Assembly (NCBI GenBank): GCA_005878985.1
Contig: VBMA01000012.1
Span: forward strand, 1 to 32,657
DNA from: Methanobacteriota archaeon
Lineage (GTDB): Archaea > Thermoplasmatota > Thermoplasmata > RBG-16-68-12
Direction of reading: 5' to 3'
DNA length: 32,657 nucleotides
Shown: in pieces, positions 1 to 14,011 of the stretch
How positions within the stretch are numbered: position 1 is the stretch's first letter
Layout: the number at the start of each line of letters is the position of its first letter
Made by a program: the position numbers and the translations under genes
Notes under the pieces: model-generated
The model's database searches: none
Told to the model about the DNA's origin: nothing
The model's input: the letters and a program-made list of their open reading frames with translations, nothing else

Positions 1-474
1 GATGAACAAGCGCCGCATGCTCCGATGGCCAAGGTCGACGCCGCCGTCGAGGCGCTCCTGACGGCGATCCAACGTTCGCGGGCCCATGGCGAGGCCACGT
101 CGGTCCACCCAATCTTCGTATTCTCCAAGTTTGATCGGGTCGATCCGGACTCGTTGCGCCTCCTAAATCTCGAGTCGGCGCCGCCGGACGTCCGCAAGAG
201 AGGGCCGCACCTAGCCTACGGCAGGGCGCTCGCAGATCGCAACATGCCGAAAACGATCGCTGCGATCAAGGCCCGCAAGGATCGAGGGCTGCGTTTCGAG
301 GCACCCGCGTATTTTTTCAGCTGGGTGCGTACAGACAATGCGGCGTCGGGGCGCGGCGAGAAAATTCGACTCCGTCACAGCGGGGCGGTCGGTTGGGAGC
401 CGGACTTTTCGAGCGACGAGTACCTCGCCTTCCTCACGTGCCTCGGAGACATCGCGGCGGACGCGCGACGCTAG
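1..474 (+). CDS. GTPase-like P-loop protein, C-terminal part (5' truncated by window edge)
   Basis: Frame 1 is open from base 1 (DEQAPHAPM...). The C-terminal half is clearly paralogous to the next gene: PIFVFSKFD/PVFVLSKFD, AYFFSWVRT/AYFLSWVRT, EPDFSSDEYLAFL/EPDFSYDEYVNFI. Confidence 0.75.
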   Translation, partial: DEQAPHAPMAKVDAAVEALLTAIQRSRAHGEATSVHPIFVFSKFDRVDPDSLRLLNLESAPPDVRKRGPHLAYGRALADRNMPKTIAAIKARKDRGLRFEAPAYFFSWVRTDNAASGRGEKIRLRHSGAVGWEPDFSSDEYLAFLTCLGDIAADARR

Positions 475-509
475 ATTGCACGGTCCGTGGGGCGTAGGTC
501 GTCGCACTC

Positions 510-1568
510 ATGATAACGTCGAGCTTAGGATTAAGTATGGATAGCGGGGCTGCACGTGATATGCCCTGTGCACTCCTAGGAGACCGAGCCTCCGGGAAGA
601 CGACGTTCTTGGGGCTCCTGTATGCCGCACAAGTGAAGTACGGTACGGGGGTCACAGATGACTTCCGTTTCCACGCGCCGATCCAGTCCCTCAACGTGAT
701 GTCGGCCGTCTACGAAGGGATGAAGGATGGACGGTTCCCCAGTGCCACCCTGAAGGAAGAGATCACGGAACTCGGTTTCGTCTTCGGCTATCTCCGGAAG
801 GTCGTCGGGAAGTTGCCCTACTACATCCGGCAGCAGAACTGGGTCCACCCATTCTCCACGCTCCGGTTCTCGGCGTACGACGTCTCGGGCGAAGACATCG
901 AAGAGTTCATCGAGACCGGGATTGCCTCAAGGCCGTTGATCCAACAGCTCCTGAAGAGCGTCGTCGTCGCGGTGTTGGTCGACTGCAGCAAGATGACCAC
1001 GGAGATCGACACGCCCGCGTACAAGAAAATGCTGCGATACGATAGCACGGTCGCCAAGCTGCTCGTCTCGTTCCAGACGTACAAGAAGCAGGAATACGAC
1101 CGGCTCAAGGACTCGGGTGTCCGGGCCGACGCCCCGAAAATCTACCCCGTCTTCGTACTGTCCAAGTTCGACACGCTTCGGGATGACGTCCTCGCGAGAC
1201 TCGGCTTGCACCGCGGGTTCCCGGAGAACAACCGGGCGCGGAAGGAATACGCGGAGGCATTGCTCCGGGTCTTCGTCCCGCAAACGCTCTCCCAGATCCG
1301 CGGCGGCAAAGTCGCCGGGGTCAGCATGGACAAGTCGGCGTACTTCCTCAGCTGGGTCCGAACGGAAACCCACGAAGGCATGGACCCGGTCGGGCAGGCG
1401 AAGATCGTGCGGACTGGCTTCGCTCCGGAGGGCGGAGGCGAACCCGATTTCTCATACGATGAGTACGTCAATTTCATCGAGCACTTCCGAGAGATCGCAC
1501 ACAAGATCCCCGACGAGATCCTCGAAGCGGAACGGTTTCAGGCTCAGGTCATGGCTCGGTCGGCCTAG
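510..1568 (+). CDS. GTPase-like P-loop NTPase
   Basis: Walker A GDRASGKT near the N-terminus, Walker B/switch-like FSAYDVSGED, and LSKFD in the place of an NKxD/TKxD G4 motif. Confidence 0.8.
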   Translation: MITSSLGLSMDSGAARDMPCALLGDRASGKTTFLGLLYAAQVKYGTGVTDDFRFHAPIQSLNVMSAVYEGMKDGRFPSATLKEEITELGFVFGYLRKVVGKLPYYIRQQNWVHPFSTLRFSAYDVSGEDIEEFIETGIASRPLIQQLLKSVVVAVLVDCSKMTTEIDTPAYKKMLRYDSTVAKLLVSFQTYKKQEYDRLKDSGVRADAPKIYPVFVLSKFDTLRDDVLARLGLHRGFPENNRARKEYAEALLRVFVPQTLSQIRGGKVAGVSMDKSAYFLSWVRTETHEGMDPVGQAKIVRTGFAPEGGGEPDFSYDEYVNFIEHFREIAHKIPDEILEAERFQAQVMARSA

Positions 1569-1579
1569 TAGGCTGCACC

Positions 1580-2443
1580 ATGGCGCCCGCAGAATCCGGT
1601 CGAGGGGCATCGGACGGAGACGTCGTCGAGTTCGACCATTGGATTTACGGTGTCGTCCCCGGGGTCGGGTACACGACGAAAGCCGTCTCCCACGGGCTCG
1701 ACGCAGGCCTGTACGATCCCTACCTCCGCGGGCATTACACGCCGATCCGCGCCGCGGCTGCGGCGACCGCGGAGGACGAAGTCGATCTCCACATGATTCA
1801 CCCGCTGAAGACCGGCCGGGAACTCCTGCTGTCTCGAATCAGCCGAGGGATTCCCGACGAAGCGGGACGACCGACCTTCACGAATCATACGGTCATCGCG
1901 CGGACGGATGTGCTCCGGTCCGGCCAGATCACGCTCGATGGGATCTTGCGTTCGATGAAAGCGTACGACGCGAAGGCGGCTGCGGACCTCCCTGCCCAGA
2001 TGCCGCTGCTCCGCGTCCCGGCGCGGCGTGAAACGGAAGGGCCGCACCGATTCGGGAACGGGATCCACAAGCACCTCACATTCCCCGCGATCGAGACCCT
2101 GGCGACCCGCATCATGACGGATCCGGCGAGCCGCACGCTACTCCTGTGCCGCAACACCACAGCCGAGGCCCGCAAGGCGACCTTGAATCTGGTGTACGAG
2201 CTCCTCGCCTGGGGCTGCGGTCTCCCGCTCATGACCGCGATCAGTGAAGCGCCGCGGTCCTCCGCGCTCAATTTCTTCAATCTGGTCGTCGCGCCACGGG
2301 GCGTCCGGGCCGACTCGACATGGGCCATTCTTGAGAGCGCGCTGAGCGAGTCGGTCTTGCCTCGCGTCCTCGATCGGGATGAGGTCTATCAGGTACTGAC
2401 CGCGACGGTCCGTCAATCCGCCGACTTGCCGCTGGCCCGATAG
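1580..2443 (+). CDS. GAP1-N-like protein (GTPase-associated protein 1 family, tentative)
   Basis: Starts 11 nt after the GTPase stop. Segments GYTTKAVSHGLD and GRELLLSRISRGIPDEAGRPTFTNHTVIA resemble the 'D..GR...H.lv' signature of GAP1 N-terminal domains as I recall it. Confidence 0.5.
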   Translation: MAPAESGRGASDGDVVEFDHWIYGVVPGVGYTTKAVSHGLDAGLYDPYLRGHYTPIRAAAAATAEDEVDLHMIHPLKTGRELLLSRISRGIPDEAGRPTFTNHTVIARTDVLRSGQITLDGILRSMKAYDAKAAADLPAQMPLLRVPARRETEGPHRFGNGIHKHLTFPAIETLATRIMTDPASRTLLLCRNTTAEARKATLNLVYELLAWGCGLPLMTAISEAPRSSALNFFNLVVAPRGVRADSTWAILESALSESVLPRVLDRDEVYQVLTATVRQSADLPLAR

Positions 2444-3813
2444 GTCCTCGCACTGCCGCCTGCATGTTCACGCACCACGGTCCATCCGTGGGCGAGTTTC
2501 CATTGGCCGTCCTTGGGCCGGTGCTCCGGCGCACCTTGACCGAGGTGCTCGAGCTCCGCTTCAAGGTAGTCCGCGTCCGTGTCGAACTCCGGCACCAGTG
2601 TGCCGGCCGAGAGGAGTTGACAGAGGATCGCCAAGCCGCTGGGTCTCCCTTTCCAGTGGACGACCAGGAAGGCCCGCCGCACGGCAGAATCGGCCAAGAC
2701 CAAGTCTCGAAGTCCGATGTACGACTCCCGATCGCGGGAGTTCTCCCGCGGGGGCGCCCCGAGCCGTTCCTTGCGTTTCTCGAGCGCCTTGAACAGCGCG
2801 AGCCACTCTTTCCTCGTCATGTCCGACCGTTCCCAGGGGGACGCGGGACTCGCCTCGTTCGGCGCCTCGTTCGAATCGCCGGATTCCCGTACCGCCCGCA
2901 CTCCGCTGTGGACCAAATCGTAGGTCGCCGCGTCGTCTTGCGTCTTCGGGGGCACCACGCGGATCGCTACCGGATCCATCCCGGGATGGAATCGCGGGTC
3001 CAGGACCATGAGGGTCCCGGTGCCCTCCTGGGAGAACAGCTCCACCAAGGTAATGTTCACTTCCGCGGTTCCGTTCCGTCGCGCGACGTCGCTCAATCGT
3101 TCCAGGGGAACCGGTTGCTTGCCGACGCAGCGACTCGATGCAAGATCGTCGAGGTACGCCTGCGCGACCTGCTGCACGTAACGCGGTCGCTTCGCGCTGA
3201 GGCCGAACTGCACCATCTTCGCCATCATCGCCGAGCCGCGAAAGATGCCGGTGACTCCCGCGCGCAGAAACGCGACGGTACCGCTCGCCTCGACGCATAG
3301 CGAGATGAGGTTCGCCATGCGGGTGGAGAGCTTCCGGCTCAGCCGGCCGCCAGGGACCCTGGACTCGTAGAAGATTCCGGCCCAGCGAAGCGGCATGGTC
3401 TCCGCCCAACCCGAGTCCGACGGACTCCGACGGACCCAGTCGAGCGTCTTGCTTCGGAGGATGGCGCTGACTAGGAGCGGGTCTTCGGTTTCGGCGCGGA
3501 CGCGGGGCAACAAGGCTTCCGCGGTCCGCAGCACATCGCGCAAGACCCGTTTGTCTCCTCGGGCCTCTTCGACGAGCACGGGTGCGTCAATCGAATTCGC
3601 CGCTTCGAGATCGAACTTCTCCTCGGGATTAAGCTGAAAGAATTTCTCGATTTCGGTGGGCCCCGACGCGGGGCTTCCCTTGACCCGGCTAGGCCCCTTC
3701 GACGAAGCCGAAGGCTTCTCCTTCTCTTCCGGCGCTGTCGACACCAGGGCCAGGAGCACCGCTGACGCTGCGAAAGGCACGCAACCCATAGATCTGGCGA
3801 AACCTAGCCACAC
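2413..3813 (-). CDS. hypothetical protein with hydrophobic N-terminus
   Basis: 466-aa ORF, convergent with and overlapping the GAP1-like gene by about 31 bp. ORF start is GTG; an internal ATG at 3789 gives MGCVPFAASAVLLALVSTA, signal-like. No family recognised. Confidence 0.6.
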   Translation of the reverse strand: MWLGFARSMGCVPFAASAVLLALVSTAPEEKEKPSASSKGPSRVKGSPASGPTEIEKFFQLNPEEKFDLEAANSIDAPVLVEEARGDKRVLRDVLRTAEALLPRVRAETEDPLLVSAILRSKTLDWVRRSPSDSGWAETMPLRWAGIFYESRVPGGRLSRKLSTRMANLISLCVEASGTVAFLRAGVTGIFRGSAMMAKMVQFGLSAKRPRYVQQVAQAYLDDLASSRCVGKQPVPLERLSDVARRNGTAEVNITLVELFSQEGTGTLMVLDPRFHPGMDPVAIRVVPPKTQDDAATYDLVHSGVRAVRESGDSNEAPNEASPASPWERSDMTRKEWLALFKALEKRKERLGAPPRENSRDRESYIGLRDLVLADSAVRRAFLVVHWKGRPSGLAILCQLLSAGTLVPEFDTDADYLEAELEHLGQGAPEHRPKDGQWKLAHGWTVVREHAGGSARTYRASGKSAD

Positions 3814-3959: not shown

Positions 3960-4985
3960 TCACTGCACCGTGACGGCAATGGCCTGCACGGCATTGTTCC
4001 CGTAACCGTATCGATTCCATCGGCCGACGTCGGGCGGCCGATTTCCTTTCGCGTCCGTCGCATAGGATCGCAGGACGTGCCGGCCCGGGTTCGTCGCGTC
4101 CCATCCGAATTCCCACGCGCGCCACGCATGCGGCGATATCGGAGGCGAGAGCGTCGCGTCCTGGGACGGCTCGACGCCGTCCACCCCGATCTGGACCCTC
4201 ACGACCACCCCCTCGCCGGACCATGCCTGGCCGCGTACGACCACGTGGCCCTGGCGCACCACGTCCCCGTCCTGGGGAGACACGATCACAGAGCGGACGC
4301 GGATCGTGCGCACCGGAGCCGGCGGGTTGCCGTCCTCGTAATCGTACACATACCGGCCGAGCTGGTAGTAACCGCGAAAAGGCTCCGAGAGAACCTCGAG
4401 CCGCTCGAGCCATTTCACGCTGGCCATGCCGTACCAGCCCGGGACGATCAGCCGGATGGGCGCTCCGTGCTCCGGGAGGATCGGCCGGCCATTCATCTGG
4501 AGGGCGAGGAGGGTGTCCGGGTCCCTCGCCTTGGCGAGCGGGAGGGACCGCGCGAACGGAATTTCGTCCGCGACGTCCGGTGGCCGTCCTCGGTCCGCGC
4601 CAATCGCGAGGACTTCGACCGCGCGTGGCCTCAGACGGGCGGATTCCAGGACGGCCCTCAAGGGGACGCCCGTCCATCGGGCTGTGCTCACCGCGCCGAG
4701 CCCCCACGGCTCGCCCGCCGGGAGCGGTTGGAATCCGGTGCGACCATTGCCTGCGCACTCGACCGTCACCGCCAAAGTGCGAGTGCCCATCGCCTCGAGG
4801 TCGGCCATGTTCAACCGCACGGGCTGCTCGACCGCACCGACGACTTCCAGAACGTGTTTGCGAGGCACCCGGTCGGGTCGGCCGAAGTGACTCCTCACAA
4901 AGAACTCGGATTCCGGTGTAAGGGTCTCTTCGAGAGCCGCGAGCGGCGTTTCCGCATTCAGTGGCTCGGCCGAGAGAATTCGCAC
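3960..4985 (-). CDS. sulfite oxidase-like molybdopterin-dependent oxidoreductase
   Basis: VTVECAGNGR (Mo-ligand Cys motif), IRLIVPGWYGMASVKWLERLEV, and a C-terminal Mo-co dimerisation-like domain with WEFGWDATNPGRHVLRSYATDAKGN. GTG start. Confidence 0.9.
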   Translation of the reverse strand: MRILSAEPLNAETPLAALEETLTPESEFFVRSHFGRPDRVPRKHVLEVVGAVEQPVRLNMADLEAMGTRTLAVTVECAGNGRTGFQPLPAGEPWGLGAVSTARWTGVPLRAVLESARLRPRAVEVLAIGADRGRPPDVADEIPFARSLPLAKARDPDTLLALQMNGRPILPEHGAPIRLIVPGWYGMASVKWLERLEVLSEPFRGYYQLGRYVYDYEDGNPPAPVRTIRVRSVIVSPQDGDVVRQGHVVVRGQAWSGEGVVVRVQIGVDGVEPSQDATLSPPISPHAWRAWEFGWDATNPGRHVLRSYATDAKGNRPPDVGRWNRYGYGNNAVQAIAVTVQ

Positions 4986-5261
4986 GCGTTCCTTCCCGGC
5001 TCCGGGAGGGCCTCCCGAGTCATTTGACTTGCGTGGCCCCCGACCAGGTACCCGTCATCCCGATCCGGGAGAAGCGAGGCGGATTGACTTGGCGCCGACC
5101 GACTCCGAGCGGTACGACCCGATGATGCCACGGAGTTTTCGAACCGACTCCGGCAGCGCGGCCAAGATTTGTGGAAAGATCGACCTTTCAACGGGAGGAG
5201 GCGCCGCCTCGACACGGACAGGAAAGCTCATCTCACGTCCAGCCTTCGCGCCGCCGGGGCG

Positions 5262-6152
5262 ATGACCGATGGTCCGAGTGCCAGCATTGCGGATGCCACG
5301 GTCCTCGGACAGCCTCTCCCGGCTTCGGTCCGAGAGCGGTTCATCGAAGCCGGAGGCGTTCGATTCCGATTTCTCCAAGGCGGCGCCACGAGTGGATTTC
5401 CGATCCTCCTGCTCCATGGGTGGCCCACCTGGGCGGAGGTTTGGATTCCGGTCGCATGGGTCCTGGGCGCCCGCCATCCGTGGATCGCGCCGGACCTCCC
5501 GTGTCAGGGCCAGAGCTCCTCGCTCCCGGGCAAGGCTCGGACCCTGACCGCGTACCGCAAAGCCATCGCTGCCTTCATCGATGCCCTCGGTCTTCCCCGG
5601 TTCGCGGTCGTCGGCAACTCGATGGGGGGCACGCTGGCCATCATGGCAGCGCTCGATCGGCCCGAGCGCGTCTCCAAAGTCGTCGTCCTCGACGCGGCCG
5701 GGCTCACGCCGAAACTCCCGGGTCGCACCGCGAGAATGTATCTGCCGTTCCTCCTCCCATGTTTCATCCGCGCACCGGGTCCAAAGAGCGTCCGGAAGCT
5801 CCTGACGAAGGCCGTCTTCCACGACCCGCGATTCGCCGATGACGCGTGGGTCAACGCAATCGTCGCCGCTTGGAAGGCCCGGGACCGACGGAAGGGGTTC
5901 ATGGCCACGGGCTTCGCCCTGAGGCGGAGCGATGCTTCGGTGGCGGCGGACCTGGGGCGCATCCACGTGCCCACGCTGGTCCTCTCCGGCCGGCATGACG
6001 TCCAGTTCCCGTGGCAATCCGCAGAAGAAGCCGCAACACGGATCCAAGGATCCCGCTTCGCCGCGATCGAAGACGCCGGGCACTTTCCGATGGTCGAGAA
6101 ACCTCGCGAGACGGCGCAACGCATCTCCGAGTTCATCGATTCGAGTGGCTGA
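5262..6152 (+). CDS. alpha/beta hydrolase
   Basis: ILLLHGWPTWAEVW, nucleophile elbow GNSMGG, VLSGRHDVQFP and DAGHFPMVEKP; start set at ATG 5262. Confidence 0.9.
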   Translation: MTDGPSASIADATVLGQPLPASVRERFIEAGGVRFRFLQGGATSGFPILLLHGWPTWAEVWIPVAWVLGARHPWIAPDLPCQGQSSSLPGKARTLTAYRKAIAAFIDALGLPRFAVVGNSMGGTLAIMAALDRPERVSKVVVLDAAGLTPKLPGRTARMYLPFLLPCFIRAPGPKSVRKLLTKAVFHDPRFADDAWVNAIVAAWKARDRRKGFMATGFALRRSDASVAADLGRIHVPTLVLSGRHDVQFPWQSAEEAATRIQGSRFAAIEDAGHFPMVEKPRETAQRISEFIDSSG

Positions 6153-6263
6153 ACCACCCGCAAATCGTCGGAACTCCCGCGAGGCGGAACGTCCGCGGAG
6201 TCGGGAGGAGTTTCTATATGACGGATGGTATCGGCCGTGCTCGGTCGTCATGGAGGCGTGCGG

Positions 6264-6899
6264 ATGAAAAGAACCGAACAGGCTGGCCAAGGCGGGCTCA
6301 AACGGTGCGAGTGGGCCCTCGGCGATCCGGCTCTCCTCGAATACCATGATGTCGAGTGGGGGGTTCCCGAGCACGACGACCGGAAGCTGTTCGAGTTCCT
6401 CGTCCTCGAAGGGGTGCAGGCCGGGCTCTCCTGGCTGACCGTCCTGAAGAAACGCGAGAACTACCGAAGGGCCTTCGACGGATTCGATCCGGAGAGGATC
6501 TCCCGGTACGATTCGAGAAAGGTCCGATCCCTCCTAGCCGACGTCGGCATCATTCGAAACCGCGCGAAAATCGCAGCCGCGATTGGAAATGCGAACGCGT
6601 TCCTCGCGGTTCAGAAGGAGTTCGGGAGCTTTGATGCGTACATCTGGCGGTTCGCGGGCGATGGACCGAAACCGAGCCGGCGGCGGACCTTGAGACAAAT
6701 CCCGGCACGGACAAAGGAATCGGACCGAATGAGCGAGGCCCTGAAGGGTCGAGGCTTCAAGTTTGTCGGGTCGACGATCTCCTATGCATACATGCAAGCC
6801 GTCGGGATGGTGAACGACCACCTGACCTACTGCTTCCGAAGCAATCCGCGTGCCGACAACCGAGATCGACCCGGGCCACGAGGCGTTGACCGGAGATGA
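6264..6899 (+). CDS. tag: DNA-3-methyladenine glycosylase I
   Basis: CEWA...YHDVEWGVPEHDDRKLFEFLVLEGVQAGLSWLTVLKKRENYRRAFDGFDP and FKFVGSTISYAYMQAVGMVNDH are diagnostic of Tag. Confidence 0.95.
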   Translation: MKRTEQAGQGGLKRCEWALGDPALLEYHDVEWGVPEHDDRKLFEFLVLEGVQAGLSWLTVLKKRENYRRAFDGFDPERISRYDSRKVRSLLADVGIIRNRAKIAAAIGNANAFLAVQKEFGSFDAYIWRFAGDGPKPSRRRTLRQIPARTKESDRMSEALKGRGFKFVGSTISYAYMQAVGMVNDHLTYCFRSNPRADNRDRPGPRGVDRR

Positions 6900-7858
6900 A
6901 GTCCAAGAGCGCGTTGGACTGGCTCCTCGAGGAGGACCAACCGTCCGTCCGCTATCTCACCCTCACCCAGTTGCTTGAAAGACCACTCGACGATCCAGAG
7001 GTCGTGGCCGCGAAGGACATGATCACGAGGAAAGGGTGGGCTCAAGAGATCTTCGCGAAGCAGGACCCGGCGGGATGGTGGGAGAGCGGGGAGAGCCTGT
7101 ATCGGCGGAAGTATCTCTCCTCAAACTGGATGCTCCTCATCCTCGCGGACCTCGGATTGACACGTGCGGATCCGCGGATCAAGAGGGCGTGCGATCTCTG
7201 GATTGAACGATTCTCCCGAGCGGACGGCGGATTCGCGATGGAAGGTTCCAAGAAAGGCCACCTTTGCACGACCGGGAACACCACGCGCGCCCTGGTGAAA
7301 TTCGGTTACGCGGACCATCCTGCCGTCCGCAGCGCGTTCGAGTGGCTCGTGACGAACCGGGACAAGAATGGCGGTTGGAGTTGTTTTGGGAGCGGTCGGA
7401 ACTTGGACTCGTGGGAGGGCATGAGTGCCTTCGCGGTGTATCCGGCGGCGAAATGGACGGAGGGCATGAAACGCGCGGTCGAACTCGGGGCCGAGTACTT
7501 CCTGGGGAAGGAACTGCACAAGCAAGGGGGGGAGTACCCGCCGTGGTACCGGTTCCACTACCCGGTCCATTATTACTATGATCTCCTCGTGGGCCTCGAT
7601 TTCATGACGGCGCTGGGGTACGGGACGGAGCCGCGAATGCGATTCGCCCTGAAGCTTCTCCGGGAGAAGAGGCGGCCGGATGGGAAGTGGAACCTCGACG
7701 CAATCCATCCGGACGTCGAGGGCGGCGTGGCTGAATGGAACGCGAAGCATCCAAAGCAGGCGCCAACGCCGTTTGGCCTCGAGAAACCCGGGGAGGCGAG
7801 CAAGCTCATCACCCTGAAGGCGATGCAAGTGCTGCATCGAGTCGACGAATCGATCTGA
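6896..7858 (+). CDS. prenyltransferase/squalene-oxidase-repeat (alpha6/alpha6 toroid) protein
   Basis: Repeated QW-like segments (ADGGFAM, KNGGWSCFG, PDGKWNLD). Start overlaps the tag stop as ATGA. No DxDD class II cyclase motif seen. Confidence 0.75.
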   Translation: MKSKSALDWLLEEDQPSVRYLTLTQLLERPLDDPEVVAAKDMITRKGWAQEIFAKQDPAGWWESGESLYRRKYLSSNWMLLILADLGLTRADPRIKRACDLWIERFSRADGGFAMEGSKKGHLCTTGNTTRALVKFGYADHPAVRSAFEWLVTNRDKNGGWSCFGSGRNLDSWEGMSAFAVYPAAKWTEGMKRAVELGAEYFLGKELHKQGGEYPPWYRFHYPVHYYYDLLVGLDFMTALGYGTEPRMRFALKLLREKRRPDGKWNLDAIHPDVEGGVAEWNAKHPKQAPTPFGLEKPGEASKLITLKAMQVLHRVDESI

Positions 7859-7932
7859 ACGAATGGACGGCCGACGAGGCTTTTGCGCATGACTTGATTA
7901 GCCACCGAGTCGTTCGGCGGGCCGGTGGGGCG

Positions 7933-8391
7933 ATGGACAAGAAGGTGAAGAAGAAAATCCTCCAGCAAATTCCATACGGCGCGTACATTGTCGGCACGCA
8001 GACCGAGGACGGAAAGGACTGGCTGATGTTCGGCACGTGGCTGATGCAGACCTCCTTCAAGCCCACCTTGGTCGCGTTCGCGTTCCGCAAAGATAGCCGG
8101 ACCCTCGCGAATGTCCGACGATCGAAATCGTTCGCCGTCTCGTTCATCCGAGAGGGCACGCAGGACGTCGCAGAACTGGTGCTCGATGGGGCGTTCGAGA
8201 AAGTGAAGACGGAGCGGACCACGTCCGGCCTCCCCGTGCTCTCGGATGGCGCTGGCTGGATCGAATGTCACGTGGTCAATCAGATTCCCGAGGGGGACCA
8301 TCCAATCGTCCTCGCGGAGGTCGCCGACGTCGGTCCGGGAAAGGGCAAGCCGATCTTTCTGGAATCGCTCGGCTGGCACTACGGGGGCTGA
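7933..8391 (+). CDS. flavin reductase-like FMN-binding domain protein
   Basis: IPYGAYIVGTQ...MFGTWLMQTSFKPTLVAFAFRKDSRTLANVRRSKSFAVSFI; short flavin-reductase architecture. Confidence 0.8.
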   Translation: MDKKVKKKILQQIPYGAYIVGTQTEDGKDWLMFGTWLMQTSFKPTLVAFAFRKDSRTLANVRRSKSFAVSFIREGTQDVAELVLDGAFEKVKTERTTSGLPVLSDGAGWIECHVVNQIPEGDHPIVLAEVADVGPGKGKPIFLESLGWHYGG

Positions 8392-8401
8392 ACGCCGTCG
8401 A

Positions 8402-9289
8402 CTAGGCGATCGTCTCGCCCCTCAGGAGCCACCGGCTCATCAGGAGATACGCGACAAACGACACGAGCATCAGGACGACGGAGTACGCGGACGCGAGTTC
8501 GAGGGAGCCGGCCTCGGCCTGCGTGAAAATGGCGATCGGTGCGGTCTTCAGGACCGCCGAGACGACAATGATTGTAGCGCCGAACTCGGCAATGCTCCGA
8601 GAGAGGACGAGGACCGACCCGGCAACGAGCCCGGGTTTCAGCTGAGGCAACGTGATCGTAAGGAAGGCGTGAACACGACTCGCTCCCAGACTGCGTGCCG
8701 CGCTCTCCAGATGGGTGTCCAGCTTGACCAGCACCGCCGCCATCGACCGGACCATGTACGGGAACGTCTCAATCATGTGCGCGAAGACGAGGATCCAGAG
8801 AGTCCACGTGAGCGAGAGCGGGTTCCCGAACAGGAACTGAGTGATCGCTCCGAAAGGACCGAACGGTCCGTAGAACGAGAGCAGGGAGAGGCCGACCACG
8901 ACGCTCGGGACGGCGATCGTGATGTTGCTGAGCGTGTCGAGCGTCTTCGCACCGAAGACCTTGGCGCGGACCGTCGAGTACGCGATGAGCGTGCCGAACA
9001 TCAATTGGAAGACGACGACGATGACCGCGATCTCGAAGCTCCGGATGAGGGGTCCGTACAGGCCCGGTTGGGAGAACAGTTGACCGTACCATCGCAGCGT
9101 GAATGTCCCCGTCCCGCTGAGGACGGACGAAGTGAAGCTGAAGGCGAAGACCGTCGCGAGCGGGCCGAGCACGAACAGGCCGAACACAAACCAGACGATG
9201 ACGGTCCAAAGCGTTTTCTCGAACGTCGTGCGCCGGAACGGCCACCTCAGCCCGATCCCCTCCCGCCGAAGATCTCGGTCATCCTCCAA
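8402..9289 (-). CDS. ABC transporter permease (Fe3+/spermidine/phosphonate-type)
   Basis: FTLRWYGQLF near the N-terminus, about 6 TM segments, EAA-type loop ESAARSLGASRVHAFLTITLPQLKPG. Confidence 0.9.
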   Translation of the reverse strand: MEDDRDLRREGIGLRWPFRRTTFEKTLWTVIVWFVFGLFVLGPLATVFAFSFTSSVLSGTGTFTLRWYGQLFSQPGLYGPLIRSFEIAVIVVVFQLMFGTLIAYSTVRAKVFGAKTLDTLSNITIAVPSVVVGLSLLSFYGPFGPFGAITQFLFGNPLSLTWTLWILVFAHMIETFPYMVRSMAAVLVKLDTHLESAARSLGASRVHAFLTITLPQLKPGLVAGSVLVLSRSIAEFGATIIVVSAVLKTAPIAIFTQAEAGSLELASAYSVVLMLVSFVAYLLMSRWLLRGETIA

Positions 9290-10235
9290 TTACGTACTTT
9301 GGCAGCGCCGACTCCAAGGTCGCCCATTGGGACCAGTCGTAGTTGAGCGTCACCGCCCCGGGCGCGGGGAGCGGAGTCCCACCGATCGGATCGGAGTACG
9401 GGGGAAGGACGGATCGGAAGTAGAACGGACCCATGTTCACGTTCGACTGAATCTCGGGCCGGAACAGGAAATCGATGAAATCCAACGCCCTCGGATTCGG
9501 ATGCCCTTTGACGAGGGCGGCCGAGAAGATGACCGGCGTCACGAACCGCTGGCCATCGAGGAGCGGGAGGTCGAAGTCGACTCGGGCACCCTGGTGTTGG
9601 TAGAACAAGGTGACGCCTTCGTAGCCCAGTGTCACCTCGAACGTATGGTCGGCAATGCCGAGGATGTTCGCGCGTGCGTTCGCCGGCTGCACGACCGTAT
9701 GGGCCAGCGCCCTCGCGCCCGCGGTCTTGGAGAGGTTCCCGAGGGCGTTCTCGAAGAACAACACGGCATAGATCCCGTTGTTGCTCAGCAGCGGATGGGG
9801 GAACCCGAACGTCCTGTTGATGAAGGTGAGATCGGGAGGCGCACCCAGGGCGGGGTCGTATACTTCGGCCAGAGGACTCCATGCGAATGCGTACCACACG
9901 TGTCCCCCGGTCACGTTGCGGCTCGCGAAGTCCGGCGGGACCGAGACGTTGGCGACCTGGAATGGCAGGAAGTAGCCCGCCGCGTACCCCTTCTCAAGGA
10001 AGAGGGGTGACGCATGGAGGAAGACATCGGCCTCAGGATGGCCTCCCGACATCCGAAGCCGGTTGTACTGCTCCCCCGCGCTGACGTATACGAGGGTGAC
10101 GTCGATTCCCGTCGCGCTCCGAAACGCGGGGACCACCAACGACTCGAGCAGACTCTGGAGTGCGGGCGTCGTGTAGACGACGAGGGCCCCCTCCTGGACC
10201 TTGTAGAGGTCCGTGAGAGACACGGCAACGCTCAC
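9279..10235 (-). CDS. ABC transporter extracellular solute-binding protein
   Basis: LVVYTTPALQSLLESLVVPAFRSATGIDVTLVYVSAGEQYNRLR...ADVFLHAS; stop overlaps the permease start. Start codon uncertain (see finding). Confidence 0.85.
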   Translation of the reverse strand: MSVAVSLTDLYKVQEGALVVYTTPALQSLLESLVVPAFRSATGIDVTLVYVSAGEQYNRLRMSGGHPEADVFLHASPLFLEKGYAAGYFLPFQVANVSVPPDFASRNVTGGHVWYAFAWSPLAEVYDPALGAPPDLTFINRTFGFPHPLLSNNGIYAVLFFENALGNLSKTAGARALAHTVVQPANARANILGIADHTFEVTLGYEGVTLFYQHQGARVDFDLPLLDGQRFVTPVIFSAALVKGHPNPRALDFIDFLFRPEIQSNVNMGPFYFRSVLPPYSDPIGGTPLPAPGAVTLNYDWSQWATLESALPKYVIGG

Positions 10236-10266
10236 CGACAGTACGAGGGCGACAATCGAGAATGCC

Positions 10267-11154
10267 CTACTTCGTATCGCCGTGCCACACCTCGATCCGC
10301 TCGGCCTCCGCTCCTTTCTTCACCATCACATGGACTTTCTCTCCCCCGCGCACACCCGGGATGTGCACCGGGATCTGTGCGCCGCCGTCGAGCGTGATGT
10401 ACGGCGATCCGTCTGGACCCATCTGCACGCTTGCCTCCGCGAATAGGACCATCTTCATGAAATCCTGGATGAACAGGTCGGGGTGCTTCATCATGCTCTC
10501 GGGGGATCCGGAGGCGACGATGCGTCCATCGTTCAGTACGATCAAGCGCCGCGCGAACATGAACGCCTCCTCCTGGTCGTGCGTAATGAACAAGGTGGTG
10601 ACCTTTTGCTGACGAATGATCGATCGAACTTCCTGTACTACCTGGGTCCGCATCGTCGCGTCGAGAGACCCGAACGCCTCGTCGAGGAGGAGAATCTTGG
10701 GCTCCACGCAAAGCGCCCGCGCGAGGGCGACCCGCTGCCGCTCGCCGCCCGAGAGCTCGTGGGGCAACCGATTCTCTTTTCCTTCGAGGTGGACCAGATC
10801 AACCATCTCCGCGATCCGGCCGCGCGCGATGCCGGCCGGAACCTTCCGCGCCCGCAATCCGTATCCGATGTTGTCGGCGACGGAGAGGTGGGGAAAGAGG
10901 GCGAAGCTCTGGTAGACGATCCCGATTCCGCGGCGCTCCGTCGGCAGCTGGCCAACCTCTTGGCCGTCGATGAGGATCTGGCCCGCCTGGGGCGTCAGTT
11001 CGCCGAGGATGCATCGGAACAGCGTTGTCTTCCCGCCGCCGGAGGGACCCAAAATCGCGGCCAATTCGCCGTCTTGCAGTCCGAAAGATACGTCCTTCAG
11101 AACCTCGTGGCCGTCGATGGACTTCTTGAGCCCTCGGACCTCGAGGGTCGGCAT
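10267..11154 (-). CDS. ABC transporter ATP-binding protein
   Basis: Walker A GPSGGGKTT, signature LSGGERQRVALARAL, Walker B ILLLDEAFGSLD, H-loop FITHDQEEA. Start placed at MPTLEVRGLKKS rather than the track's 11583. Confidence 0.95.
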   Translation of the reverse strand: MPTLEVRGLKKSIDGHEVLKDVSFGLQDGELAAILGPSGGGKTTLFRCILGELTPQAGQILIDGQEVGQLPTERRGIGIVYQSFALFPHLSVADNIGYGLRARKVPAGIARGRIAEMVDLVHLEGKENRLPHELSGGERQRVALARALCVEPKILLLDEAFGSLDATMRTQVVQEVRSIIRQQKVTTLFITHDQEEAFMFARRLIVLNDGRIVASGSPESMMKHPDLFIQDFMKMVLFAEASVQMGPDGSPYITLDGGAQIPVHIPGVRGGEKVHVMVKKGAEAERIEVWHGDTK

Positions 11155-11301
11155 TCCACCGGGCAGAAAGGGGTCAGGGTAGAAATACGTGCGGCACCCG
11201 GCCCGGGAACGCCGTGCGTGAAAGGCGGCTCCAGGTCGCGGTCGCCCCGGCCGCCGGGTCATGGTTCTTGAACCCTCGGGCGGTTCCCTCTCGGGGCGCG
11301 C

Positions 11302-11652
11302 ATGACCTATTCGGAGGCCCAAGCCGCGCGAGTCCGCAAGGCGCTCGCGGGCCGCAAGGACATCACCGAGAAGCAATTGTTCGGCGGGATCGCCTTCCTC
11401 CTGAGCGGCAACATGTGCGTCGGCATCCACGGCGACGATCTCATTGTGCGGATCGAGCCGGCCACGACCGACGCGATGTTGAAGGAACCGGGCGCGAAGC
11501 CGTTCGATCTTTCCGGGCCCCGCGCCATGGCGGGTTGGCTCCTCGTGGCGCCCGCGGGAACCCGCACAGACGCCGCGCTCCAAACTTGGGTGGCGCGCGG
11601 GGTCGGATTCGCCTCTTCGTTGCCGAAGAAACGACCCGCCCGGAAGCAGTGA
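11302..11652 (+). CDS. TfoX/Sxy N-terminal domain protein
   Basis: EKQLFGGIAFLLSGNMCVGIHGDDLIVRI...RAMAGWLLV matches TfoX-N. Confidence 0.9.
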   Translation: MTYSEAQAARVRKALAGRKDITEKQLFGGIAFLLSGNMCVGIHGDDLIVRIEPATTDAMLKEPGAKPFDLSGPRAMAGWLLVAPAGTRTDAALQTWVARGVGFASSLPKKRPARKQ

Positions 11653-11725
11653 CCCGCGCTCTGTCCTTTGGATCCGTCCAGGTGATATGGTATATTGGAT
11701 TGAGATGTCGTATGCCCATATATCC

Positions 11726-11734
11726 TTAAATATA
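11726..11734 (+). promoter_or_regulatory. archaeal TATA-like box upstream of the Fic gene
   Basis: TTAAATATA in a strikingly AT-rich stretch; about 27 bp upstream of ATG 11757, fitting a leaderless transcript. Confidence 0.6.
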
Positions 11735-11756
11735 ATGTATGGTATATGGAAAGAAT

Positions 11757-12653
11757 ATGCTGGAGGCCATACTGACCCAGCTCAGGCACGAATTGCTCAC
11801 CCGAGCTCCATTGGACACACTCCCGTCGGGCGTGTGGCGACGCACCGGGGCGCTCAACACATGGGGAACGAACGCGATTGAGGGGAACACGCTCACGCGC
11901 AAAGATGTCGAACGGATCCTGCTGGAAGGACGGAGCGTATCGAATCGATCGCTTCCGGATGTCCTCGAGACGATCCAGCATGAGCAGGCCTTCGAGAGCC
12001 TGCTCCGCCGACGTACCGATGCGATTCGGCTATCCTCGGTCCTCGACCTCCATGACACCGTGTTCCGAGGCATCAAGCCGGATGCGGGTCAGTGGAGGCA
12101 GGTGAATGTTCGCATCGCCGGCGTCCGACATGTCCCGCCTCGGATGGAGAAGGTCGTCGCCCTCATGAGCGACTGGGAGGAGTCGTATGCGAAGCAGGAA
12201 ATGGAGGGCGTCGACGTCTTCTCGCTTGGCGCGCGCATGCACTTCGAGTTCGAGTCAATCCACCCCTTCAGCGACGGGAACGGCCGGGTCGGTCGACTCC
12301 TCCTGAACCTTCACTTCCTGAAACACAACTGGCCGCCCGTGCACATCCTGCCTCCGGATCGGTCTCGATACCTCCGGTCGCTCAACGCGGGCCACACGGG
12401 AGACCTCACGGGTCTCGAGGCGTTCCTCACCGGCGCGATGGGGCGCTCCTTGCTCGACCTCCTCGACCAGGTCGGGACCGCCGAGGACGAGCTCAAGCCG
12501 TTGAGGAAGATTGCCGCGCGGGGCCCGTACTCGGCCAAGTACCTCGGTCTTCGGGCGGGACAGGAGAGGCTACCGGCCATCAAGATTGCGGGAGACTGGA
12601 ACACGAGCCCCCACGCCCTCCACCTCTATCGCCAACAGGTGGGCCGTTCATGA
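11757..12653 (+). CDS. Fic family protein (putative AMP transferase)
   Basis: HPFSDGNGRVGR matches HxFx(D/E)GNGRxxR; N-terminal TNAIEGN matches the class II inhibitory helix (S/T)xxxE(G/N). Start chosen at 11757 from promoter spacing (track gives 11739). Confidence 0.93.
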   Translation: MLEAILTQLRHELLTRAPLDTLPSGVWRRTGALNTWGTNAIEGNTLTRKDVERILLEGRSVSNRSLPDVLETIQHEQAFESLLRRRTDAIRLSSVLDLHDTVFRGIKPDAGQWRQVNVRIAGVRHVPPRMEKVVALMSDWEESYAKQEMEGVDVFSLGARMHFEFESIHPFSDGNGRVGRLLLNLHFLKHNWPPVHILPPDRSRYLRSLNAGHTGDLTGLEAFLTGAMGRSLLDLLDQVGTAEDELKPLRKIAARGPYSAKYLGLRAGQERLPAIKIAGDWNTSPHALHLYRQQVGRS

Positions 12654-12686
12654 AGGCCACCGAATCGCGCGACGCGCCGCGTCCAG

Positions 12687-12712
12687 GCCGGTGAATCACC
12701 GGCGATCGCCGG
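12687..12712. repeat. two overlapping palindromes
   Basis: GCCGGTGA-A-TCACCGGC (12687-12703) overlapping CCGGCGATCGCCGG (12699-12712). Confidence 0.8.
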
Positions 12713-12826
12713 CCCAAGAGTGATGCCCTCGGCCGCCATGTCGGGAGGCATGTGTGCCCGCGGGACAGACGCGAAAGCGATCGGTCGGCACGGAACGGTC
12801 GCCTCCGCAGCAGAGGGTGAGGTCGT

Positions 12827-14011
12827 ATGACGACACAGATGAGCTTCGCGACTCGCTCCGAAGGGCCCCTGCAGGAAGTCACGGAACGACATCCGCGCCT
12901 CGCCATCGATGCGTATCCGATGGGCCGACTCCTGCTCCTCCGCTGCTTTGGAGACGTGGATGGCCTCGACGGGGCCGCCGAGATCAACGGTTTCGGCGGC
13001 GAAGTCCTTCATAGGACGCGGACCGGGGACGAGGTCACCCTGTTGCTCGACGGCTCTGGTCGCGAAGAAGAAGTCATCGCGTCCCTCGCGGATCAGAGCG
13101 CGCACCTCATCCCGCCGATTCGTTGGCAGAATGGCGAAGCGCGGGTGACGCTGGTCCTCGAGGACGGGGCCGACCCGCAAGCCCTTCTCGATCAGTTCCC
13201 CGGTGCCCGCCTCGTTTCGAAGCGGCGCCCCATCCCGACGCGCGGAGATCGGGTCGCCTACTCGTCCCCGTTGTTCTTGCCCAAACTCACCGAGAAGCAG
13301 GCGAGGGCTCTCCTCGCGGCGTACGAAGCCGGCTACTATGAATTCCCGCGGAGGGCGACGACGGAACAGGTCAGCCTTTCTCTCGGCATCGCTCGGAGCA
13401 CATTCGAACAGCACCTGAACCGGGCCGAGCATCATGTGGTTCGTGCGATGCTCCCGATGGTCCGCGCGCGTTCCGGCCGAGAAGACGGAGAAGCGCTGGA
13501 GGTCTACTCGAAGTTCAGCCGCGAACTCGGACTGTACGTCCAGCTCGAGGTCCTGGGGGATCGCGTCGCCGCGGTGAGGCTGGCTCGCAAGGCTCCGTCG
13601 GAGACGGCGGGATCGGAGCACCCATATCTGGCCCGGATCCTCGAACATGTCCACACGGGAAAGGGCGATCTGCAGGACATTCCGCTCGCGCTCGAGGTCG
13701 CGCCCTTCGAACGAGAGGTCCTCGAGTTCTTGCGGACGATTCCCCCGGGCGAGACGATCACGTACGGGGAGATCGCCCGACGGCTCGGGCGGCCCGGAGC
13801 GAGCCGCGCCGTCGGGACCGCGTGCGCGCGAAACCCGGTGGTCATCGTCATCCCGTGCCACCGCGTGGTCCCGAAATCGGGCGGCCTCGGGAATTACTCC
13901 TCCGAAGGGGGCCCGGAAACGAAGCGGAGGCTCCTCGAACGCGAAGGCGCCCGTGTGGCACTCGAGATGAAAACCGCACCGAGCGCCCGAAGATCGCAAG
14001 TCAAGGACTAG
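12827..14011 (+). CDS. HTH_10 (bacterio-opsin activator type) regulator fused to methylated-DNA--[protein]-cysteine methyltransferase
   Basis: LTEKQARALLAAYEAGYYEFPRRATTEQVSLSLGIARSTFEQHLNRAEHHVV (HTH_10) followed in the same frame by FEREVLEFLRTIPPGETITYGEIARRLGRPGASRAVGTACARNPVVIVIPCHRVV (MGMT active site PCHRV). Confidence 0.92.
   Translation: MTTQMSFATRSEGPLQEVTERHPRLAIDAYPMGRLLLLRCFGDVDGLDGAAEINGFGGEVLHRTRTGDEVTLLLDGSGREEEVIASLADQSAHLIPPIRWQNGEARVTLVLEDGADPQALLDQFPGARLVSKRRPIPTRGDRVAYSSPLFLPKLTEKQARALLAAYEAGYYEFPRRATTEQVSLSLGIARSTFEQHLNRAEHHVVRAMLPMVRARSGREDGEALEVYSKFSRELGLYVQLEVLGDRVAAVRLARKAPSETAGSEHPYLARILEHVHTGKGDLQDIPLALEVAPFEREVLEFLRTIPPGETITYGEIARRLGRPGASRAVGTACARNPVVIVIPCHRVVPKSGGLGNYSSEGGPETKRRLLEREGARVALEMKTAPSARRSQVKD

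Follow-up and report, generated by a model that had tools for sequence, protein, structure and literature searches.

The closest described relatives of the locus analysed here are the GAP1-N2-type DO-GTPase systems (Kaur et al. 2020, PMC7159879), and that defining paper already mentions GTPase-GAP1 systems from a few archaea. These systems are so far predictions only, and the literature that we found assigns GAP1 neither a fold nor an activity. Two other groups of proteins enter the comparison through their structure. TagF, a post-translational repressor of the T6SS, is encoded directly downstream of tssM, the gene for a P-loop protein, in Serratia and other T6SSs, and blocks assembly of the T6SS membrane complex (PMC6082577); in the A. 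tumefaciens protein, alanine changes in the GK, DW and SDR residue sets (Gly8/Lys9, Asp30/Trp32 and Ser79/Asp81/Arg85 in P. aeruginosa numbering) abolish Fha binding (PMC5995506). The longin domain of SMCR8 carries an arginine finger, Arg147, whose role has been demonstrated (PMC8213707), and longin domains have been proposed to descend from prokaryotic MglB-type GAPs (PMC3521125).

The locus described here, from a soil archaeon, is a slimmed-down variant of this known, so far only predicted, GTPase switch family. A first-pass annotation made from the DNA sequence alone had taken it for an archaeal, reduced GAP1 system; two GTPases and a short GAP1-N2-related partner are indeed present, but an archaeal occurrence as such had already been published.

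Organisation of the locus

The window, by which we mean the whole stretch of 32,657 nucleotides that was analysed (G000:C52:1-32657), starts with a tightly linked four-gene set composed of GTPase A (1..474, + strand), GTPase B (561..1568, +), a GAP1-like gene (1580..2443, +, 287 aa) and the gene for a right-hand partner protein, RN (2413..3813, - strand, 466 aa), which is convergent with the GAP1-like gene and overlaps it tail to tail by 31 nt (window:2413-2443), as it does in all the f1 and f5 loci that were checked. Two tandem paralogous GTPase ORFs followed by a third ORF had been annotated before, and all three are found at the positions claimed, together with the 11-nt spacing between the stop of GTPase B and the GAP1-like ORF and both of the motifs quoted from the latter; the cluster had, however, been ended one gene early, since RN belongs to it too. 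The left side of the locus had correctly been placed outside the window, to which we add that base 1 is the end of the contig and that the first GTPase is therefore only partial.

What is visible of GTPase A, a degenerate DO-GTPase paralogue, is the C-terminal half, in which a protein of 306 aa is represented by its residues 150-306; the missing N-terminal half was looked for in the rest of the assembly and not found. The full-length gene is present at 4717-5637 of a near-identical locus (L002) in a Euryarchaeota MAG (EA_10), where the GAP1-like protein is 98% identical to that of the window. To the left of GTPase A in L002 and in L003 lies a gene that, judged by eye, is dienelactone hydrolase-like, so that the module in these loci appears to begin at GTPase A. 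The GTPase B ORF opens at 510 and runs 510-1568 (+), and several orthologues start where the window has its ATG of position 561 (MPCALLGDRASGKTTF). Values of dN/dS of 0.03-0.11 for GTPase B, 0.08-0.24 for the GAP1-like gene and 0.25-0.45 for GTPase A indicate that all three are real genes. Beyond the set, the genes at 3963-14008 encode a Mo oxidoreductase, a hydrolase, a methyladenine glycosylase, a terpene-cyclase-like protein, a flavin reductase, an ABC transporter, a Fic/DOC-family protein (window:11739-12653; Pfam 3.5e-21) and an alkyltransferase.

An intact GTPase and a degenerate paralogue

GTPases A and B had been called paralogous, and the relationship holds, with an E-value of 3.9e-16 over the visible part of A and about 33-37% identity over the full length. 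Their assignment as DO-GTPase-like is likewise borne out by Pfam profiles of that family (PF19993/PF19975): DO-GTPase2 is matched by 24 of 27 GTPase homologues (best 8.4e-10) and DO-GTPase1 by 16 of the 27, while GTPase B of the window itself reaches 8.2e-5 and 22.8 bits against DO-GTPase2 in hmmscan, under the 27-bit cut-off. By these profiles and the motifs below, the window GTPases are divergent DO-GTPases. GTPase B has an intact G1 (GDRASGKTT), G3 (DVSGED, with the Walker B Glu) and G4 (SKFD); across the family G1 takes the form G[DE]RxxGKT, the G3 motif D[VI][AS]GED, including the Walker B Glu (DxxGE), is kept in all 15 aligned proteins, and G4 [STA]KxD in 14 of them. Identities of 85-97% within family or order, falling to 65-69% with family f15, accompany a very strong purifying selection on this gene. 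Its AlphaFold2 model (pLDDT 80) matches G-alpha, MglA, atlastin, GBP1 and RagC; a search of PDB sequences with the single GTPase B sequence gave no match. Neither a CxxC motif, looked for in the 27 aligned GTPases, nor a zinc-ribbon Pfam match was found.

The pair is not symmetrical. The G3 DxxG motif is absent from all 14 GTPase A homologues and the P-loop Lys from 8 of these 14, while G4 [ST]KxD is retained by all; this loss is read from the homologues because the window's own G1 and G3 regions lie beyond the contig end. We infer that GTPase A is a pseudo-GTPase which does not hydrolyse GTP, so that of the GTPase pair first annotated two paralogues stand, but only one of them, B, appears to be active. 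In a tree the A and B proteins group imperfectly and without a clean split, and in L053 and L095 GTPase A is placed beside GTPase B of the same family (93/92), which may reflect either repeated origin of pseudo-GTPases or a long-branch effect.

The GAP1-like protein: sequence relationship and predicted fold

Against Pfam the window's GAP1-like protein gives no match, GAP1-N2 included, and only one of 18 GAP1-like homologues matches the GAP1-N2 model, at E 0.17. Because 1580-2443 thus escapes the Pfam models, the link to GAP1-N2 needs profile-profile comparison, for which the alignment of these 18 sequences (A1) served as the hhalign query. It matched genuine archaeal GAP1-N2 domains of the same class, from genome G411 (L071) and family f22 (L072-L076), with probability 87, E 3.8e-6 and score 52.2, and a set including Rhodococcus GAP1-N2 with probability 84, E 7.6e-6 and score 46.9. 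The Rhodococcus loci, our bacterial reference, came from a plasmid search with the L071 GTPase; a long archaeal GAP1, used as query against plasmids, gave no match. The best score in 100 column shuffles for each comparison (200 in total) was 24.3, and control probabilities were 0.3 for a GTPase alignment, 0.1 for an RN alignment and 0.1 for reversed alignments. The signal resides in the N-terminal domain (residues 12-135), which alone scores 43.8 and 42.6 against shuffles of at most 19.1, whereas the second domain (136-287) scores at shuffle level in the split test and shows no sequence similarity to GAP1-M; GAP1-C is absent, a 287-aa protein being too short for it. G30, P55, D93, R97 and H103 are invariant in all 17 rows of a joint alignment in which both groups are represented, yielding a conserved motif D93-x3-R97-x5-H103; one GAP1-like homologue, that of L054, has V/K at D93/R97. 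The N-terminal half of the GAP1-like protein is, by these profile comparisons, related to genuine GAP1-N2 domains. The earlier GAP1-like label for 1580-2443 is sound to this extent: the Pfam models are silent and only the N domain is held in common. Among the canonical loci themselves, L071:5630-8011 carries GAP1-N2 and GAP1-M on separate, neighbouring ORFs with just a few bases between them, either a split gene or a frameshift.

The proposed check by AlphaFold and Foldseek gave a confident model (pLDDT 86, pTM 0.86). Its top Foldseek match is TagF of Acinetobacter baylyi (9t0n; E 1.7e-6, probability 1.00, TM 0.50/0.45), the sole match under 0.001, followed by P. aeruginosa TagF (2.2e-3) and the Lst4 longin (3e-3); further weak matches are the FLCN GAP complex, C9orf72:SMCR8, GATOR1-KICSTOR and a Lokiarchaeal Roadblock-Longin protein, the eukaryotic longins ranging from E 3e-3 to 6e-2. 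The N domain is predicted to be longin-like. A PDB sequence search with GAP1-like and GAP1-N2 profiles gave nothing useful, and TagF_N was matched neither in the window's genome nor among the Pfam matches of the GAP1-like family, so the likeness to TagF is one of fold; the spacing of D81 and R85 in TagF equals that of D93 and R97 here, a correspondence by numbering only. Among the viral structures of BFVD no comparable relative of the model was found (best E 7e-3, TM 0.25).

RN and the linkage of the module across genomes

In a sample of 200 genomes of the class the GAP1-like gene occurs in 26, GTPase B in 28 and both in 25 (Fisher 2e-27), the unpaired cases being contig-edge or partial matches together with a weak f22 match. 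RN is present in 22 of the 200, in 21 alongside the GAP1-like gene (Fisher 1e-22) and in the remaining one alongside GTPase B; it is restricted to genomes with the module and is a constant neighbour in three families. RN gave no useful match to Pfam, NCBIfam, PADLOC or PDB except the PKD domains to which, with TM segments, it is fused in G173.

Gene order varies between families and the linkage persists. The order is A-B-GAP1 with RN opposite in f1, B-GAP1 with RN opposite in f5 (where the contig ends beyond B) and B-GAP1-A with RN opposite in f15, several of whose loci have an SPFH/Band-7 or flotillin-like gene directly upstream of GTPase B (L047:9699-10685, L048:5899-6825, L049:9336-10331). 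It is B-GAP1 in f17 and f24, GAP1-B-A-HEAT/ARM-kinase in f28 and B-A-GAP1 in G266, of another class; in f9, GTPase B adjoins a HerA-GAP1 fusion. The linkage is recurrent: wherever the flanking sequence is long enough, GTPase and GAP1-like genes occur together, and this holds for several families from two classes (G058, of f25, locus L050, was left out since its contig is too short). With GAP1-N2 profile similarity found as well, the refutation put forward in the first-pass annotation, namely lack of GAP1 profile similarity and of recurrent linkage, fails on both counts.

The surroundings of these relatives vary. In an unusual architecture, L052:2474-4342, next to GTPase B, encodes a HerA/DUF87 ATPase followed in the same chain by a GAP1-like domain. 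At L051:2887-5967 a 1026-aa protein of HEAT/ARM repeats plus a protein kinase is encoded after GAP1-B-A on the same strand, and a TnpB/Cas12f-like TNB-domain gene (L051:8918-10027) lies immediately upstream of the GAP1-like gene. In the other class, L093:3245-13366 around B-A-GAP1 holds an Ig-like plus FGE-sulfatase protein, an SPFH-like protein with a Zn ribbon and a HEAT-repeat protein.

Proposed mechanism and alternatives

On balance we lean towards reading the locus as a reduced archaeal DO-GTPase/GAP1-N2 system that works as a membrane-proximal switch, in which the GAP1-like protein turns off GTPase B by means of R97. GTPase B would be the nucleotide switch and GTPase A its catalytically dead partner, the two forming an asymmetric dimer. 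The GAP1-like protein would dock on the switch regions of GTP-bound GTPase B and insert R97 as a candidate arginine finger, with D93 holding the loop, in the manner of SMCR8-type longin GAPs; it is this proposed insertion that would make it the off-switch, R97 being a candidate, picked out by its conservation, for a catalytic arginine stimulating GTP hydrolysis. The polarity is a guess, since longin-type folds are also found in GEFs, effectors and scaffolds, and a less likely alternative would make the GAP1-like protein an effector or adaptor that depends on GTP. Signals would enter or leave the switch, probably at the membrane, through RN and the SPFH/Band-7, PKD-TM, HEAT/ARM-kinase or Ig-FGE neighbours of the homologues; these variable neighbours together with RN suggest a membrane-proximal role.

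A defensive function, in which the GTPases together with GAP1 would define a threshold for letting an effector loose upon infection, is suggested by the prediction of the parent family as conflict systems (PMC7159879), by effector-like neighbours in relatives (the HEAT/ARM-kinase of L051, the Ig and FGE-sulfatase protein of L093, the HerA fusion of L052) and by patchy presence across families. We nevertheless consider it improbable: the window locus shows no effector, defence gene or relevant PADLOC match (the sole one is weak, E 0.005, to the GTPase), most of the genomes sampled from the genus retain the GAP1-like gene, the evolution of GTPase B is very slow, and RN, being a constant partner, is no variable effector. 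The neighbours at 3963-14008 are, moreover, housekeeping genes, on which ground a defence-island reading was rejected. Of the earlier suggestion of an uncharacterised defence or signalling module, the first half is thus unsupported at the locus, and the second fits what looks like a conserved chromosomal signalling module.

The fold match lends itself to another interpretation, that the GAP1-like protein is a TagF-like adaptor or scaffold which, rather than catalyse hydrolysis, would bind both GTPases and keep a membrane complex from assembling. TagF is its best structural match, is encoded directly downstream of the P-loop protein TssM, prevents membrane-complex assembly (PMC6082577) and needs its Ser79/Asp81/Arg85 set, with the shared D-x3-R spacing, for binding Fha (PMC5995506). 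Yet no T6SS part was identified nearby, TagF_N is matched in neither the genome nor the family and the residues correspond by spacing only, and we regard this interpretation, too, as unlikely. That two small GTPases merely happen to lie beside an unrelated conserved hypothetical could be entertained on the ground that 1580-2443 has no Pfam family at a useful E-value; with linkage in several families under shuffled gene order and profile-profile homology far above shuffles it has become scarcely conceivable, and the linkage data already refute it.

Comparison with known systems

With the systems of Kaur et al. (PMC7159879) the locus shares paired paralogous DO-GTPases with a Walker B Glu, a GAP1 gene directly downstream, the D-x3-R...H motif in the GAP1-N2-related domain and, in relatives of the window locus, kinase and FGE-type neighbours. 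It differs in that its GAP1 has 287 aa instead of 556-925 aa and no recognisable GAP1-M or GAP1-C, in that its GTPases lack a zinc ribbon and one of them is degenerate, and in the new partner RN; FNIII was matched in neither the GTPases, the GAP1-like protein nor RN (PKD occurs on RN in one relative). The canonical loci L071-L076 have the same family of GTPases and the same N domain, but in L072-L076 GAP1 is a long protein and in L071 it is divided between two ORFs, and these loci fall outside the GAP1-like family in sequence searches, being linked to it by profile-profile comparison. The L075 GTPase carries multiple TM segments, and that of L071 has an N-terminal Cys-rich, Zn-ribbon-like part and HSP70-like neighbours.

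TagF resembles the GAP1-like protein as the top fold match over the whole chain, in being encoded directly downstream of a P-loop protein and in a D-x3-R set needed for TagF function; it differs in that sequence similarity is undetectable, no T6SS is seen at the locus and the TM-score is 0.50. With the longin-domain arginine-finger GAPs (SMCR8-C9orf72, FLCN-FNIP, NPRL2/GATOR1) and MglB/Roadblock the points in common are a longin-like domain, here a predicted one, that bears an invariant Arg, and a dedicated GTPase partner, but the fold similarity is weak, the window GTPases belong to a different TRAFAC branch and the eukaryotic complexes pair two longin proteins where one is seen here. A broader, rather doubtful idea is that GAP1-N and TagF constitute one ancient prokaryotic superfamily of longin-type regulators, whose conserved Arg would act on P-loop partners encoded immediately upstream (DO-GTPases; TssM) and which would work as, and perhaps be related to, the eukaryotic arginine-finger longin GAPs of Rag and Arf; the archaeal locus, with its active and dead GTPases, would then be a minimal form.

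The short archaeal GAP1-like protein offers a confident model, a structural lead to TagF and longins and a single invariant Arg, and what was a "GTPase-associated protein" becomes a testable claim of a GTPase-activating protein. To the known systems the locus adds an active GTPase paired with a putative pseudo-GTPase and a new constant partner; the pseudo-GTPase A, the fourth gene RN and the fold match of the GAP1-like model are what is new here.
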